From Aerococcus sp. UBA6277 (lineage in GTDB: Bacteria > Bacillota > Bacilli > Lactobacillales > Aerococcaceae): a stretch of DNA of 11,242 bases. The DNA lies in contig NZ_DJUR01000022.1 of the NCBI RefSeq assembly GCF_002440555.1, positions 1 to 11,242 of the forward strand, in the 5' to 3' direction. The position numbers and the translations under genes were made by a program. The notes beneath the pieces were generated by a model. That model did no database searches. It saw only the letters and a list, made by a program, of their open reading frames with translations, and was not told the DNA's origin. The first letter of the stretch is position 1; each line of letters starts with the position of its first letter. Below, piece by piece: positions 5,611 through 11,007 of the stretch.

Positions 5611-6318
5611 ATGGAATACGCTGAAGTGATGACTGAATTGGAAGCTTTGGGAAAAGACCGGACCAAGAAAATATACCTTTCAAATGGGGCGGTTGAACCA
5701 TTATTTGGTGTAACAACGGAGTCAATGAAACCCATGCGGAAGGCCATTAAGATTGACCAAGACTTGGCTGAAGAATTATATGCATCCGGAAACTATGACG
5801 CTATGTACTTTGCGGGTGTAATTGCGGACGCCAACGCCATGACGGAATCGGATTATGACCGGTGGATGGACCAAGCATACTGCTTCATGTTGGCTGACTG
5901 GGTGGTTGCTGTGACCTTATCTGAAGCGGATATCGCCCAAGAAGTGGCGGACAAGTGGATTGCCTCTGGCGAAGAGTTGAGGATGTCAGCTGGCTGGTCG
6001 ACTTATTGCTGGTTGTTAGGCCGGTTGAAAGACGATAATTTTAGTGAGGATAAGTTGTCAGCTATGCTTGACCAGGTTAAGGAAACGATTCATGACCAGC
6101 CTGAACGGTCCAAACATTCTATGAACAACTTCGTGTATACGGTTGGCTTATCCTATATTCCCTTATCTGAAAAAGCCTTAGCGGTGGCTGAAGAAATTGG
6201 TGAAGTGGTGATTGAACGTGAACATAAGAAACCACAAACTTTGAATGCTTATGCGTCGATTCAAAAGGAAATTAAAAGAGACCGGATAGGTTTTAAACGT
6301 AAATACGTTAGATGTTAA
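5611..6318 (+). CDS. AlkD-like DNA alkylation repair protein
   Basis: 235-aa all-helical protein of the AlkD (HEAT-like repeat) superfamily, whose characterised members are glycosylases removing alkylated bases from DNA. Recognised from EALGKDRTKKIYLSNGAVEP, PLFGVTTESMKPMRKAIK, the helix pattern LAEELYASGNYDAMYFAGVIAD and the family-typical tail RIGFKRKYVRC. This branch differs from true AlkD in the active-site helix (here ADWVVAVTL, 96-104), so glycosylase activity is not assured. The C-terminal stretch about 203-217, where relatives known to me carry a CKVP motif, reads HKKPQTLNAY. Its start is fixed by ATG 5611 after a modest GAGGG; no better in-frame start lies upstream. A gap of 58 bases follows the YczE-type gene with no terminator between. 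Confidence 0.8.
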   Translation: MEYAEVMTELEALGKDRTKKIYLSNGAVEPLFGVTTESMKPMRKAIKIDQDLAEELYASGNYDAMYFAGVIADANAMTESDYDRWMDQAYCFMLADWVVAVTLSEADIAQEVADKWIASGEELRMSAGWSTYCWLLGRLKDDNFSEDKLSAMLDQVKETIHDQPERSKHSMNNFVYTVGLSYIPLSEKALAVAEEIGEVVIEREHKKPQTLNAYASIQKEIKRDRIGFKRKYVRC

Positions 6319-6325
6319 TTTAGAT

Positions 6326-6365
6326 AAAAAAGGTGCCTGCGATTTTGTTCGCGGGCACCTTTTTA
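6326..6365. terminator. Strong, probably bidirectional terminator
   Basis: A 16-bp stem, 6327-6342 against 6349-6364, with one T-G wobble and loop TTTTGT. It is flanked by A-run and T-run, so it works for the rightward AlkD-like gene and for the leftward SDR gene ending at 6381. This is the only convergent junction in the window. Confidence 0.93.
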
Positions 6366-6380
6366 CTTTATAATACAGGC

Positions 6381-7034
6381 TTATAGATTTTGAACGGCTG
6401 TTGTGACATCTGTATCTCCGTCAACTACTTCGAATTCTTTACCAATGGTATTGTCGTTTTCTAGAACCGCTAGTAAGGTTTGGGCTACGTTTTGACGGGC
6501 AACGTCTATGACTTCACCTTGGGGTTTAGTAGTGATTTTCCCAGAACCTGGTTTATCACGTAAGACACCTGGATGAACGATGGTCCAATCTAGGTTGGTA
6601 CGTGATTTCAACCATTCATCTGCATAAGTTTTCGCAGTGGTATAAACGCGTAAGGCACCTTTCTCTATTTGCTCGCGACCGGTTCTAAAGGTAGATACGA
6701 TCACGAAACGCTTGATACCAACTGCCTCAGCTGCTTGCATCGATTTAATAGCGCCATCAAGGTCAACCATCATAACAATGTCGTCGCCTGAACCGCCGGC
6801 ACCAGCTGAGAAAATCACTGAATCAATATGATTGTCGGTCAGAATTTTTTCAATGTCTGCTTGTGTGTGTTTGGTTAAGTCTAAGTAAACTGATTCAATC
6901 CCGCGTTCTTCAAAGAAGGGGGCTTGGTCTAAGTTACGGATGGCTGCAACTTCTTCTACTGTTTCTGAATCCTTTACAAAATCTGCGAAGTGACGGGATA
7001 CGCCACCATGGGCACCAATTACAAGTACTCTCAT
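6381..7034 (-). CDS. Atypical SDR, NAD(P)-binding oxidoreductase
   Basis: 217-aa Rossmann-fold protein of the extended/atypical SDR_a5 type (B. subtilis YhfK-like), usually a flavin- or NAD(P)-dependent reductase-like protein of unknown substrate. The nucleotide-binding loop is VLVIGAHGGVSRH (3-15), IFSAGAGGSGDD follows strand 4, and VSTFRTG and VYTTAKTYAD hold the Tyr-x3-Lys pair. VHPGVLRD and the tail VAQTLLAVLEN...EFEVVDG are family-typical. In the loop the third glycine of GxxGxxG is Ser13. Start: ATG 7034 has AAAGGAG 10 bases upstream and begins the first beta strand; upstream in-frame ATGs at 7136 and 7094 would add a sequence without homology-like features. Confidence 0.88.
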   Translation of the reverse strand: MRVLVIGAHGGVSRHFADFVKDSETVEEVAAIRNLDQAPFFEERGIESVYLDLTKHTQADIEKILTDNHIDSVIFSAGAGGSGDDIVMMVDLDGAIKSMQAAEAVGIKRFVIVSTFRTGREQIEKGALRVYTTAKTYADEWLKSRTNLDWTIVHPGVLRDKPGSGKITTKPQGEVIDVARQNVAQTLLAVLENDNTIGKEFEVVDGDTDVTTAVQNL

Positions 7035-7148
7035 GTTTGAAAAGCTCCTTTCAAATGACCTTAATATTTCTGTATCAAATTTTTTTATGTTCATTTGTCT
7101 ACTACTCAGTATAAAGGTCAAAAAAGGGCAATTCAAAGAATCCGCTTA

Positions 7149-7697
7149 TTAGCGGTCGAAATCAATCCGCTTACTTAAAGGGTACATGATAAACATACCA
7201 AGGGTCATGGCCGCAAATTCAGATAGGGCAAGTGATAAGTAAATTGGTAAGAAGGCAGCGTCTGCACCGACTAATACGATTGTTGTAGTGGTTGTGAACA
7301 TGGATAGGGCGAAAACAACTGTCAAAGTGATATAGCGAATCCATTGGTCAGACAATAAGTCAAATTGGGCTTGCTTGGCCATTTTGACAAGATAATCGCC
7401 TAACCAGCGACCAATGTGTAGGAAGATAAAGGTTGAAACAGAGCCAACGATCATGTCCATTGGGCCATATGTCAGGAAGTTGGCGATGAAAACACCGATA
7501 GAAACAGCCCAGATATAGCGTTTATTATGAAGCGCTAGGAAGTTTAGAGATTCAGAAATCCGGAATTGAACGGGGCCGTAAGAAATCGGCGCGATGACTA
7601 GGGTGATGACCACGTATAAGGCTGCCACGACGGCAATTTTGGTCATATCTAGAGTGGTAAAGCGTGAAGGGGTGATTGTATCATTTGCGTTATTCAT
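7149..7697 (-). CDS. queT: Queuosine-precursor ECF transporter substrate-binding subunit QueT
   Basis: 182-aa integral membrane S component that confers preQ1/queuine-type substrate specificity on the shared energy-coupling (EcfA/A'/T) module. It has about six membrane segments. The family hallmark is ALYVVITLVIAPISYGPVQF then RISESLNFLALHNKRYIWA (about 26-64), after which comes SIGVFIANFLTYGPMDMIVGS. A long N-terminal hydrophilic extension (about 18 residues) precedes the first helix. No ECF ATPase or T-component gene is present, as usual for group II S components. The start at 7697 has AAAGGAG 6 bases away, and that ribosome binding site is the regulated element of a preQ1-II riboswitch (7704-7788). 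This independently supports the substrate assignment. Confidence 0.95.
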   Translation of the reverse strand: MNNANDTITPSRFTTLDMTKIAVVAALYVVITLVIAPISYGPVQFRISESLNFLALHNKRYIWAVSIGVFIANFLTYGPMDMIVGSVSTFIFLHIGRWLGDYLVKMAKQAQFDLLSDQWIRYITLTVVFALSMFTTTTTIVLVGADAAFLPIYLSLALSEFAAMTLGMFIMYPLSKRIDFDR

Positions 7698-7703
7698 TTT
7701 AGT

Positions 7704-7788
7704 CTCCTTTGTAGGCTGGGCCTAGTGTGCAATTGCGACCAAAGGACACTGAAAACAGTGAGTAGTACTCTACCGAAGTGTCGCAATT
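7704..7788 (-). ncRNA. preQ1-II riboswitch controlling queT translation
   Basis: Reading the minus strand: P2 is a perfect 9-bp stem, AATTGCGAC (7780-7788) with GTCGCAATT (7731-7739). The loop ends in TCCTTTG (7740-7746), which can pair base for base with CAAAGGA at the ribosome binding site (7705-7711), giving pseudoknot P3. ACAC (7725-7728), then hairpin P4 TAGGC-CCA-GCCTA (7712-7724), then CAAAGGAG follow, the same order as in the Streptococcus preQ1-II (COG4708) RNA. Ligand binding should stabilise P3 and hide the ribosome binding site. The segment between the P2 5' strand and P3 is 33 bases long and holds extra hairpin-forming sequence (CACTG-TTTT-CAGTG). Linker bases just before ACAC differ from the pneumococcal form. 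Confidence 0.88.
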
Positions 7789-7828
7789 ATAGTGTGTTTT
7801 TTGATGTTGAGTTGATATATGTAGAAAG

Positions 7829-8608
7829 TTATCGGATCAGCCAACCGCCGTCGACAGGAATAGTATTGCCCTGCATGTAAGCTGCCTGGTCGCTGGCTAG
7901 AAATAGGGTTAGGGCCGCTACTTCATCAGGACTTGCCCACCGTTTAGCGGGTGTTTGAGCCATCACTTGATCGGCCATGGGATTATCACCCATAAAATCA
8001 GCTTGGTTCATTGGCGTCAGGATAGCACCAGGCGCAATGGCGTTCGCCACTAAACCTTGCCCCGCGTAATCGTAGGCCATCTGTTTAGTAAACCCGACGA
8101 TAGCATGCTTAGCTGTTGTATAAGCAATCCCGCCGCCACCAGCCGTTAACCCAGCAATCGATGTCATATTGATCAAGCGAGAAGTAGGATTGGCTAGTAG
8201 CATAGGTAAAGCTTTGTAGGTCATATTATAAACCACTTGTAAATTACTAGAAATAATCGTTTGCCAGGTTGTCGGGTCCGTTTGATCTAAGGCTTTATAA
8301 TCGTCAAGGACACCGGCTGTATTACATAGTACATCAATAGTATTCCAAGAAGTTTTTAATTCTTGAAAAAGGATAGTTACTGCCATTAAATCGCTACAAT
8401 CCACTTTGCGAAAGCTAAAGTTTTTCGGGTAGCTAGTAGTCCATTTATTAACCAAACCTGCATCTTGCTTAAGATCGACAGCCAAAACGCGATGGCCCTT
8501 TTCTAAAAAGTGTTGTACCTGACTGCTGCCAATACCAGACATGCCTCCTGTAACGATAACATTTAATTGGGCAGGGAGTTTAGGATAATCAGTGTAGGAT
8601 GTATCCAT
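7829..8608 (-). CDS. Classical short-chain dehydrogenase/reductase (FabG-like)
   Basis: 259-aa cytosolic NAD(P)-dependent oxidoreductase. Motifs in order: TGGMSGIG (20-27), Asp45 at the end of beta strand 2 (AVDLK, predicting preference for NAD(H)), NTAG (96-99, usual NNAG), Asn122, Ser150, Tyr163 and Lys167 (YTTAK) as catalytic tetrad, APGAILTPM (192-200), and the C-terminal GNTIPVDGGW typical of FabG relatives. Substrate cannot be predicted; no fatty-acid synthesis genes are nearby. Start: AAAGGAAG lies 7 bases before ATG 8608. It follows the DUF2829 gene by 41 bases in the same direction, so cotranscription is likely. No terminator is visible between it and queT, so read-through into the riboswitch region is possible. 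Confidence 0.93.
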   Translation of the reverse strand: MDTSYTDYPKLPAQLNVIVTGGMSGIGSSQVQHFLEKGHRVLAVDLKQDAGLVNKWTTSYPKNFSFRKVDCSDLMAVTILFQELKTSWNTIDVLCNTAGVLDDYKALDQTDPTTWQTIISSNLQVVYNMTYKALPMLLANPTSRLINMTSIAGLTAGGGGIAYTTAKHAIVGFTKQMAYDYAGQGLVANAIAPGAILTPMNQADFMGDNPMADQVMAQTPAKRWASPDEVAALTLFLASDQAAYMQGNTIPVDGGWLIR

Positions 8609-8649
8609 GTATCTGCTTCCTTTCTATTGTGTAAGTGATGTCTGCGTTA

Positions 8650-8874
8650 CTAGTCAGAAACGATAGACCAGTCGTCAGCTAGGATATCGCAAACGGTTGG
8701 TTGGAACATTGAGAAGCCCTCTCCTGCTACTGAAATCAAAAAGTAGGGGGTAATGGCTTGGCCTTCAAATTCTTTCGGGTCAACTAGTTTTACGTACTCT
8801 TCTGCGCCACCCCAACCATCGCGGATAATGTGTGCGCCTTGGCGTAATTTAGGTAAGATTTCTTCAAATGTCAT
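8650..8874 (-). CDS. DUF2829 protein, Tad2-like (possible anti-Thoeris protein)
   Basis: 74-aa soluble protein. It matches the DUF2829 pattern I recognise: MTFEEILPKLRQG, then RDGWGG (18-23; GW conserved), a strand TPYFLISV (42-49) and the closing DILADDW (63-69). DUF2829 includes phage Tad2, which sequesters the cyclic ADP-ribose signal made by Thoeris defence systems. Many chromosomal members are uncharacterised, so anti-defence function is inference only. Residue GG replaces the common NG after GW. It has an exceptionally strong ribosome binding site (AGGAGGTGA, 8 bases before ATG 8874) and an extended -10 promoter. No phage genes surround it; neighbours are an SDR gene (same direction) and the divergent metal ATPase. 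Confidence 0.78.
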   Translation of the reverse strand: MTFEEILPKLRQGAHIIRDGWGGAEEYVKLVDPKEFEGQAITPYFLISVAGEGFSMFQPTVCDILADDWSIVSD

Positions 8875-8991: not shown

Positions 8992-9023
8992 CAAGTTATA
9001 TGAATGGTCATTCATATAACTTG
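8992..9023. promoter_or_regulatory. ArsR/SmtB-type operator, perfect 15-2-15 inverted repeat
   Basis: Arms CAAGTTATATGAATG and CATTCATATAACTTG flank GT. The core TGAA-N6-TTCA inside ATATGAATGGTCATTCATAT matches the 12-2-12 operators of ArsR/SmtB metal sensors such as CzrA and SmtB. Its position over the predicted start of transcription fits a repressor released by metal. It does not match PerR (TTATAATNATTATAA) or Zur sites. No regulator gene is in the window. Confidence 0.82.
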
Positions 9024-9057
9024 TATATAGTAAGTGAAATGATTAAAAGGAGTGGAC

Positions 9058-11007
9058 ATGATGACTGAAAATAGAGATCGTCATACGGAAGAGAAAACTC
9101 ATGACCACCATGGACACAACCATGGTGAACATGATACCAAACTAGCTGCGAGACTATATATACTAGGACTGATTGCCTTTGTACTTGGATTAATTATTGG
9201 TAACTGGCAAAGTTTAATTGGGAATATATTGATGGTAGGGGCTGTTATCCTTTCTGGCTACCATGTTTTAGAAGAAGGATTTGGAGATACTATCCGAGAT
9301 AGTTTATCAGCTGGTAAGTTTAAACCCAATATTCACCTCTTGATGGGGTTAGCGGCAGTTGGAGCCATATCCATTGGTTCATTCTATGAAGCGGCCTTAT
9401 TGATATTAATTTTTGCGGGTGCGCATTTCTTAGAGGATTATGCAGAAGGTCGATCACGTCGAGAGATTACTAATCTGATGAATTTAAATCCAACAGAGGC
9501 ATTCTTGTTAAAAGCAGACGGTACTAGTCATAAGGTAGCGGTTGACCAATTGCAAATCGGGGACCGGGTAAAGGTATTAAATGGTGGACAAATCCCAACG
9601 GATGGTAGAATTGTTCAAGGCGCGACAGTGATCAATGAGGCTTCCATTAATGGGGAGTCCATGCCAAAAGAAAAGTCAGTTGGAGATGAGGTTTTTGGTG
9701 CTACCATTAACGGAGACCATGCGATAGTCGTTGAAGTGACTAAAAATCCAGATGAAACAGTGTTTGCTAAAATTCTACAAATGGTTGAATCATCACAAGC
9801 AAATCTAACGCCAGCAGCCTCTAAAATTAAAAAATTGGAACCTATTTATGTTACAGCGGTCCTAGCGATGTTCCCATTTGTGATTCTTCTTGGACCATGG
9901 CTTTTTGGCTGGGATTGGGCAGATGCTTGGTATCGTGGTCTAGTATTCCTCATTTCAGCATCACCATGTGCTCTAGCAGCTTCAGCAGTTCCTGCAACCT
10001 TGTCGGCCATTTCTAGTTTGGCCCGTCATGGTGTTTTATTCAAAGGTGGCGTTTACTTATCTAATTTGAAGGATTTAAAGGCCATTGCCTTTGATAAGAC
10101 GGGTACCTTGACAAAAGGTGAACCTGAGGTGACTGACTACTATTTCATTGAAAGTATTGAAGGAAAAGATATATTACCAGTGATTGTTGAGATGGAAAGC
10201 CAATCTAACCATCCTTTGGCCCAAGCCATTTTACAAGAATTTAAAGACTATACGAACAGTTTAGCTGGGGAAATTGAAGTGATCAACGAATTAGGAAAAG
10301 GGCTTAGTGGTCATTACGATGGGCATCACTATCAAATTGGTAAACCATCAATATTTACGTCTGTTCCAGATAAAATCAAAGCGCATTCGGATGCATTGTC
10401 AAAAGCTGGTAAAACGGTAGTGTATGTCGCAAAAGATGATGCCGTGATTGGTTATATTGCCATGATGGATACCCCAAATCAAGCGGCTCAAACAGCCATT
10501 AGCTACTTAAACCAAGCTGGTGTGCATACCGTGATGATCACTGGTGACAATCAAGCAACTGGACAAGCAGTGGCCAAGCAAGTTGGGATAGATCAAGTTG
10601 TGGCCAATGTTCTACCTGAAGAAAAAGCGCAAATTGTAAAAGATTTGCAAGCTGAATATGGCCAAGTTGCGATGACAGGCGATGGGGTGAACGATGCACC
10701 AGCACTTGTTCAAGCAGATATTGGTTTTGCCATGGGCGATGGTACTGATGTAGCGATTGATGTGGCAGATGTTGTAGTCATGGACAACGATTTGGAAAAA
10801 TTAACCTATGCCCATCAACTTTCTAAGGATTTAAACCGCATTACTTGGCAAAATATTGCTTTTTCTATGTTTGTCGTTTTGGTTCTAGTTGTCCTTAATT
10901 TTATGGGAGTTTCAGATATCGCTTTAGGTGTACTTTTTCATGAGGGATCAACTATTCTAGTTATTCTTAATGGCTTACGACTCCTAAGAGGAAAAAGAGG
11001 TAAGTAG
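9058..11007 (+). CDS. P1B-4-type heavy-metal-exporting P-type ATPase
   Basis: 649-aa membrane ATPase that pumps a transition metal out of the cell. The N-terminus has no CxxC metal-binding domain; it carries a His-rich stretch (His9, 15, 17, 18, 20, 22, 25). The translocation motif SPC (302-304) in a membrane helix and HEGST (628-632) in the last helix define the P1B-4 group (CoaT, CtpD, PfeT/ZosA), which export Co2+, Fe2+ or Zn2+; the exact metal is not readable. Catalytic motifs are NGES (198-201, usual TGES), phosphorylated Asp346 in DKTGT, HP (385-386) and GDGVND (541-546). AAGGAG precedes ATG 9058 by 5 bases (ATG 9061 by 8); the in-frame GTG 9052 overlaps the ribosome binding site. An ArsR/SmtB-type operator upstream suggests Zn/Cd/Co induction. 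Confidence 0.95.
   Translation: MMTENRDRHTEEKTHDHHGHNHGEHDTKLAARLYILGLIAFVLGLIIGNWQSLIGNILMVGAVILSGYHVLEEGFGDTIRDSLSAGKFKPNIHLLMGLAAVGAISIGSFYEAALLILIFAGAHFLEDYAEGRSRREITNLMNLNPTEAFLLKADGTSHKVAVDQLQIGDRVKVLNGGQIPTDGRIVQGATVINEASINGESMPKEKSVGDEVFGATINGDHAIVVEVTKNPDETVFAKILQMVESSQANLTPAASKIKKLEPIYVTAVLAMFPFVILLGPWLFGWDWADAWYRGLVFLISASPCALAASAVPATLSAISSLARHGVLFKGGVYLSNLKDLKAIAFDKTGTLTKGEPEVTDYYFIESIEGKDILPVIVEMESQSNHPLAQAILQEFKDYTNSLAGEIEVINELGKGLSGHYDGHHYQIGKPSIFTSVPDKIKAHSDALSKAGKTVVYVAKDDAVIGYIAMMDTPNQAAQTAISYLNQAGVHTVMITGDNQATGQAVAKQVGIDQVVANVLPEEKAQIVKDLQAEYGQVAMTGDGVNDAPALVQADIGFAMGDGTDVAIDVADVVVMDNDLEKLTYAHQLSKDLNRITWQNIAFSMFVVLVLVVLNFMGVSDIALGVLFHEGSTILVILNGLRLLRGKRGK

Follow-up and report, generated by a model that had tools for sequence, protein, structure and literature searches.

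Analyses of the leader preceding queT on the minus strand (7788-7704) of an 11,242-nucleotide stretch of DNA from Aerococcus sp. UBA6277, referred to here in its entirety as the window, indicated that this RNA is very probably a preQ1-II (class II) riboswitch which controls queT translation and represents a subtype with a hairpin in the J2-3 linker. A sequence-only reading of the window had proposed a structural variant of preQ1-II with an enlarged J2-3, and this was supported by the match of a covariance model built without the window's leader, by covariation in P2 and the inserted hairpin, and by the presence of queT downstream.

The pairing elements of preQ1-II were correctly listed in that reading, with P2, the P3 pseudoknot to the Shine-Dalgarno sequence (identified by complementarity only) and P4 present in that order (Table 1). 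P2 consists of nine perfect pairs between AAUUGCGAC and GUCGCAAUU. The P3 strand UCCUUUG is complementary to CAAAGGA (7711-7705) at the ribosome binding site, and the queT AUG follows at 7697-7695. Both hairpins that had been described in the J2-3, CACTG-TTTT-CAGTG and GTAG-AGTA-CTAC, are present, and the J2-3 is not compact, as it has 33 nt versus the 12-nt P2 loop of the Rfam model. The linker before ACAC (7728-7725) differs as reported, the J2-4 having drifted from the usual UAUUAC. No P1 hairpin was seen by eye before 7788. P1 is an optional part of class II. By eye, CAGUGU (7751-7746) might also form a competing structure by pairing with either ACACU (7728-7724) or the ACU after the Shine-Dalgarno sequence.

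Table 1. Coordinates of the queT leader elements and flanking genes in the window.
Feature	Coordinates	Strand	Basis
Short-chain dehydrogenase gene, 5' of the leader, same strand as queT	7829..8608	-	PF13561/PF00106; open reading frame
P2 5' strand, AAUUGCGAC	7780..7788	-	Read from sequence
A29-C30-U31-U32 equivalents, ceiling base and pocket strand	7776..7779	-	xCUU in 109/109 parsed leaders; roles from passages of PMC11625349
J2-3, 33 nt	7747..7779	-	Sequence
J2-3 first hairpin, GGUAG-AGUA-CUACU, 5 pairs, conserved insert	7761..7774	-	Covariation in family
J2-3 second hairpin, CACUG-UUUU-CAGUG	7747..7760	-	Sequence; in the window, G015 and G017 but no other of the 36 family leaders
P3 5' strand, UCCUUU (anti-Shine-Dalgarno, U36-U41), and G42	7740..7746	-	Sequence; TCCTTTG in 108/109 parsed leaders
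P2 3' strand, GUCGCAAUU	7731..7739	-	Read from sequence; P2 covariation
J2-4 linker, GCACAC	7725..7730	-	Drifted from usual UAUUAC; last A-C kept
P4 hairpin, UAGGC-CCA-GCCUA	7712..7724	-	Sequence
AAAGGAG: A70-A71 pocket bases, Shine-Dalgarno, P3 3' strand	7704..7710	-	In 109/109 parsed leaders
queT, 182 aa, gene behind the leader	7149..7697	-	PF06177, 116.2 bits (cut-off 33.7)

The leader lies directly before queT (COG4708; PF06177), and the stop codon of the dehydrogenase gene is approximately 40 nt 5' of P2. Based on a consensus scan that found no promoter-like or terminator-like site in 7600-8700, the leader possibly lies inside one transcript with the dehydrogenase gene. The TATAAT at 7791-7786 was rejected as a promoter, as no promoter-like pair was found and the start would fall inside P2, and a terminator reading of the leader was likewise dropped, as there was no terminator-like site within 7600-8700. 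The dehydrogenase gene is a conserved neighbour of queT: a gene of this type ending in DGGW[LI]I(R/K) stands 5' of 10 of the 36 family leaders, that of the window among them, and the same dehydrogenase was seen by eye 5' of several leaders in families f3 and f9.

Searches of plasmid records with 6300-8700 of the window produced no match. Elsewhere in the window, a 74-residue protein encoded at 8650-8874 on the minus strand matches PF11195 (Tad2-like, Thoeris anti-defence 2-like domain) and adjoins ordinary metabolic genes. A near-perfect palindrome found by eye, AAGTTATATGAATGGTCATTCATATAACTT at 8993-9022, lies immediately 5' of a P-type ATPase gene (9052-11007) and is possibly an operator.

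Within the window's family, 72 of 76 genomes had a QueT match, and the leaders of 97 QueT matches, including that of the window, were inspected. Thirty-six of these leaders carry TCCTTTGG with AAAGGAG after it and can be divided into P2, J2-3, P3, J2-4 and P4, with the exception of three that have no P4. These three (L153, L148 and L146, from G022-G024 of genus g5) have P2, the J2-3 hairpin and P3, with only 7-8 nt joining P2 to AAAGGAG. Four leaders (G001, G002, G028 and G035) have a J2-3 of 6-8 nt and are, in favor of the class II reading, the same RNA with a short J2-3. The J2-3 of the other 32 is 21-33 nt long, and a stem of at least four pairs can be formed in every one of them. Five pairs starting from the sixth J2-3 base, directly after xCUUC, were found in 22 of these 32, and other stems in 10. 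The hairpin originally described as weak, GTAG-AGTA-CTAC, is therefore the conserved hairpin of the family, and the CACTG-TTTT-CAGTG hairpin that had been taken as the main one is a local addition, present in three of the 36 leaders.

P2 and the first J2-3 hairpin covary. Both-sided changes were found at seven of eight aligned P2 pairs, with 97.6% of cells paired across the 36 leaders, and at four of five pairs of the J2-3 hairpin, with approximately 93% of cells paired and gaps in 6 to 11 of the 36 rows at a given pair. Compensatory changes were thus found in P2 and in one of the two extra hairpins (7774-7761). The stem of the second hairpin is identical in the three leaders that have it and only its loop varies (UUUU or GUAU), so it has no covariation support. 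P3 also showed no compensatory changes; it is invariant in the 36 leaders except for G-C/G-U at one end, and so is without covariation support of its own.

None of 500 shuffles of the 36-leader alignment reached its covariation score, its percentage of paired cells or its number of double-change cells. The remaining two of the five measures were within the range of the shuffles, with 35 of 500 having as high a number of pairs with a double change and 65 of 500 as many further pair types. Sliding the structure along the alignment reduced pairing to 31-52%. The outer pairs of P4 were poorly aligned in the 36-leader alignment (57.6% paired) and were 92.2% paired in alignment A2, in which the alignment of the J2-3 hairpin was poorer (68.2% and 90.9%); for four of the five measures no shuffle came as high there. 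Taken alone, the window's leader had an unremarkable folding energy (z -1.64; 10 of 200 shuffles as low), and the case therefore rests on comparison.

The match to the Rfam preQ1-II covariance model that had been proposed as a check was not obtained, an outcome that the sequence-only reading had named as refuting. There was no match to the window in the Rfam library at gathering scores, the leader not reaching the 47 bits of preQ1-II (RF01054), and none at 7550-7950 up to E 10, including RF01054, RF00522 (preQ1-I) and RF02680 (preQ1-III). RF01054 gave matches at E up to 10 in 42 of the 76 family genomes, some before queT and others elsewhere, none of the 76 being over the cut-off. We consider that RF01054 likely misses these leaders because a P1 hairpin and a P2 loop of 12 nt are built into the model.

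A covariance model, R1, was built from 30 related leaders, omitting the window's leader, both of its near-twins (G015 and G017) and the three genus g5 leaders, and keeping four other leaders of the window's genus. In the window's genome (G000, 1.83 Mb) the best R1 match was at 7787-7702, with 51.3 bits and an E-value of 4e-7; the second match had an E-value of 5.85 (R1 E-values are rough). This first-rank match, with the window held out, indicated that the stretch is more than chance. R1 also matched all three of the omitted g5 leaders without a P4 (E 1.7e-8 to 4.6e-8).

Searches with R1 in a sample of the order identified matches in 108 of 395 genomes, from 35 of 80 genera and seven family codes, none of them f4. 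In the class sample there were matches in 16 of 398 genomes, of which nine lie beyond the order; of the 398 genomes of the phylum sample, R1 matched that of the window alone. When RF01054 was run on an order sample equal in size and handles, 66 genomes were over its cut-off, 65 in f4 and one in f9 (G350), and 107 of the 108 R1-matched genomes are absent from these 66. The exception, G350 (locus L188, genus g53), ties the two models together, as it is matched by both RF01054 (51.7 bits, cut-off 47) and R1 (52.6 bits). Fifteen loci from the class search were run against Rfam, and two matched RF01054 (40.8 and 37.3 bits), both below the cut-off. A QueT frame was present in all 44 of the R1 loci L210-L253, with the leader pattern within 200 nt before the frame in 40; it was unseen in L212, L224, L233 and L235, owing either to a different start for the called frame or to a divergent pattern. 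One distant locus from a QueT search of named genome contigs was left out.

The J2-3 was compared in 109 parsed leaders, comprising the 36 of the family and 73 of the 82 R1 matches outside it; eight unparsed matches (L190, L199, L288, L293 and L296-L299) and the misparsed G321 were left out, as was a repeated copy from G051. The parsers required TCCTTTGG and AAAGGAG or near patterns: AAAGGAG for the family, and [AG]AAGGAG with C[TC]T near the pocket strand for the 73 other leaders, so the constancy of TCCTTTG, AAAGGAG and the pocket-strand bases is partly by construction. A P4-type stem of at least three pairs, a lax criterion, occurs between P2 and AAAGGAG in 106 of the 109. J2-3 lengths are two-peaked, with 6-9 nt in 22 leaders, 20-35 nt in 87 and none of 10 to 19 nt. 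An enlarged J2-3 is consequently not peculiar to the window's RNA, being the form of most parsed leaders. Long J2-3 were found in f1, f2, f3, f7, f8, f9 and f11, and short ones in f1, f3, f5, f9 and f47; the 30 f4 loci inspected have a compact J2-3. On the QueT tree described below, three changes between long and short are needed.

It might be argued that the long J2-3 is a tolerated, structureless spacer whose hairpins are those of any 20-30 nt insert, since shuffled inserts reach a stem of four pairs in 71% of cases and of five pairs in 32%, and a few real inserts fold poorly (e.g., L287, -0.7 kcal/mol). We consider this unlikely, as stems of at least four pairs can be formed in 85 of the 87 long inserts and of at least five in 61 (70%), in addition to the double changes at four of five pairs of the family hairpin. 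Inserts of other families have differing sequences, with pairs swapped between A-U, C-G and U-A. As a joint alignment of unrelated inserts mixes hairpin registers, these pairs were counted per lineage in 27 of 28 inserts (L256 omitted) hand-picked from the 55 long inserts outside the family; the mismatches were T-T in one row at one pair and C-T in two of three rows at another. Single inserts fold only moderately better than their shuffles: p was below 0.05 in 45 of 79 distinct inserts, with a median of 0.046 and a value of 0.032 for the window. Combined over 29 genera, taken as independent, p was 7e-13.

To place the pocket residues we numbered the window by our own mapping through L188, which reads ACUUAUUUCCUUUG-AUCGUCGU-UAUUAC and fits the class II crystal numbering; this numbering puts C37-C38 where the double mutant described in part of PMC11625349 has them. 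The residues with pocket or other roles in class II given there are C30, U31, U40, U41, A55, A70 and A71. By the L188 mapping C30, U31, U40, U41, A70 and A71 are all present in the window, and A55 has an equivalent only when the alignment of GCACAC is anchored at P4. The mapping also leads to a revision of P3. Its complementarity to the ribosome binding site stands, and the seven pairs first counted are more likely five (U36-A75 to U40-A71), with U41 predicted to read the ligand and G42 to face A29 at the pocket ceiling.

The J2-4 of the window has lost the UAUU of UAUUAC. This loss counts against the class II reading, together with the lack of an Rfam match to E 10, the lack of a visible P1, the invariance of P3, the two covariation measures that lie within the shuffle range and the modest folding advantage of single inserts. 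One could suppose from the absent P1, the drifted J2-4 and the missing Rfam match that the structure is the remnant of a decayed riboswitch, with queT expressed without control, and G018, of the same genus, has a partial second queT match (L157, G018:C1:465571-466251; PF06177 positions 35-141) whose upstream stretch contains no leader of this kind. We find decay hardly credible, given the nine perfect P2 pairs, the intact P3, P4 and pocket strand, and a complete queT reading frame scoring 116 bits against PF06177.

The J2-4 change also bears on the choice of ligand, as TGCACAC is confined to the window, G015 and G017 (three of 109 leaders), with TATTACT or TATTACC in 45 of 109. The genome has a second queT on contig C31 (G000:C31:4486-4932, L062) behind a preQ1-I-like leader (35.4 bits; RF00522 cut-off 39). 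Many of the 61 family leaders outside the 36 look like preQ1-I by eye; of 16 run against Rfam, two passed RF00522, six were below the cut-off at 31-36 bits and eight gave nothing at gathering scores. A tree of 71 QueT rows was made by a quick method that gave long-branch warnings; a single branch (SH-aLRT 91) separates the 46 rows that have class-II-type leaders from the 24 that have class-I leaders. The class-I labels were assigned by hand from the leader, and eight of the 24 were also matched by RF00522 (two over the cut-off, six below). Copies (L208, L251) and short frames (L057, L212) were left out of the tree, and L061 had no QueT frame.

From these data it could be proposed that in the window's clade the class II fold senses a ligand other than preQ1, such as another queuosine precursor or a purine, in parallel with its own QueT paralogue, the J2-4 change and second hairpin marking the shift: the class-II copy could have specialised, and the QueT rows are split by leader class with one change. 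We regard such a shift as very unlikely, because the equivalents of C30, U31, U41, A70 and A71 are unchanged and family members with the usual J2-4 precede QueT proteins of the same branch.

Other QueT loci had features of their own. The class-II queT of the family member G051 (L043/L073) groups with f11 and f47 QueT and not with its own family (support 80, quick tree), and queT with its leader occurs twice in that genome; together these suggest possible horizontal transfer. A RAGATH-18 RNA match (L131 259-324, 62.7 bits, cut-off 44.9) lies upstream of a queT with another leader type.

Returning to the preQ1-II reading of the window's leader, repression of translation by preQ1 is likely in view of the conserved pocket, the burial of the Shine-Dalgarno sequence in P3 and the downstream queT, and by analogy with the solved class II RNAs, for which this mechanism is described in part of PMC11625349. 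When abundant, preQ1 would bind between P2 and P3, where the C30, U31 and U41 equivalents would hold it, and would lock P3, in which UCCUU would pair with the Shine-Dalgarno AAGGA; ribosome loading would then be blocked and the importer turned off. When preQ1 is scarce, P3 would open and QueT would be made. In the subtype, a hairpin-bearing linker projecting from the P3 end of the stack would replace the compact 6-9 nt J2-3, and the window's clade would have gained a second hairpin beside the first. As the hairpin lies between the pocket strand and P3, it is probably at the far end of P3, and our guess is that it affects the folding or stability of the pseudoknot, not the choice of ligand. We can also imagine, more tentatively and as a doubtful extension, that the J2-3-hairpin subtype is a separate one, widespread in Bacilli and at least one further order, whose hairpin stacks on the open P3 end and sets the folding speed or switching threshold; that the second hairpin and rewritten J2-4 retune it in the window's clade; and that one cell thus has two QueT paralogues answering preQ1 at different levels via two riboswitch classes.

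Section 6 of the 2024 review PMC11625349 limits class II to Bacillota, primarily Streptococcaceae and Lactococcus, and a passage of PMC9495176 places preQ1-II in Lactobacillales only. The 107 of 108 R1-matched genomes outside the set passing RF01054 suggest that class II is larger than reviewed. Among the literature titles and abstract openings searched we found no earlier report of the J2-3 hairpin, and an older printed description may exist. Natural J2-3 hairpins, the second hairpin and leaders without a P4 offer test cases for separating the parts involved in pseudoknot folding from those that read the ligand.

Of the known systems, preQ1-III (RF02680) shares with class II an HLout pseudoknot with ten identical pocket nucleotides and is also found upstream of queT; it has a separate P5 docking the Shine-Dalgarno sequence (passages of PMC11625349), and the window had no Rfam match to it. 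Within the same family, the leaders of G007, G008, G016, G033 and kin share CUUC, the 5-bp J2-3 hairpin, UCCUUUG, P4 and queT with the window; they differ in having a single hairpin and, in most, a J2-4 nearer UAUUAC, and in several of them a further hairpin was seen by eye immediately 5' of P2. With the preQ1-II RNAs of RF01054, from Streptococcus and, according to part of PMC11625349, L. rhamnosus (4JF2), the window's leader has in common P2, P3 to the Shine-Dalgarno sequence, P4, their order, the pocket bases, AAAGGAG and queT downstream. It differs from them in its 33-nt J2-3 with two hairpins, where theirs is compact (6-9 nt), in having no P1 that could be seen, in a J2-4 of GCACAC that is not UAUUAC-like, and in being missed by the Rfam model.
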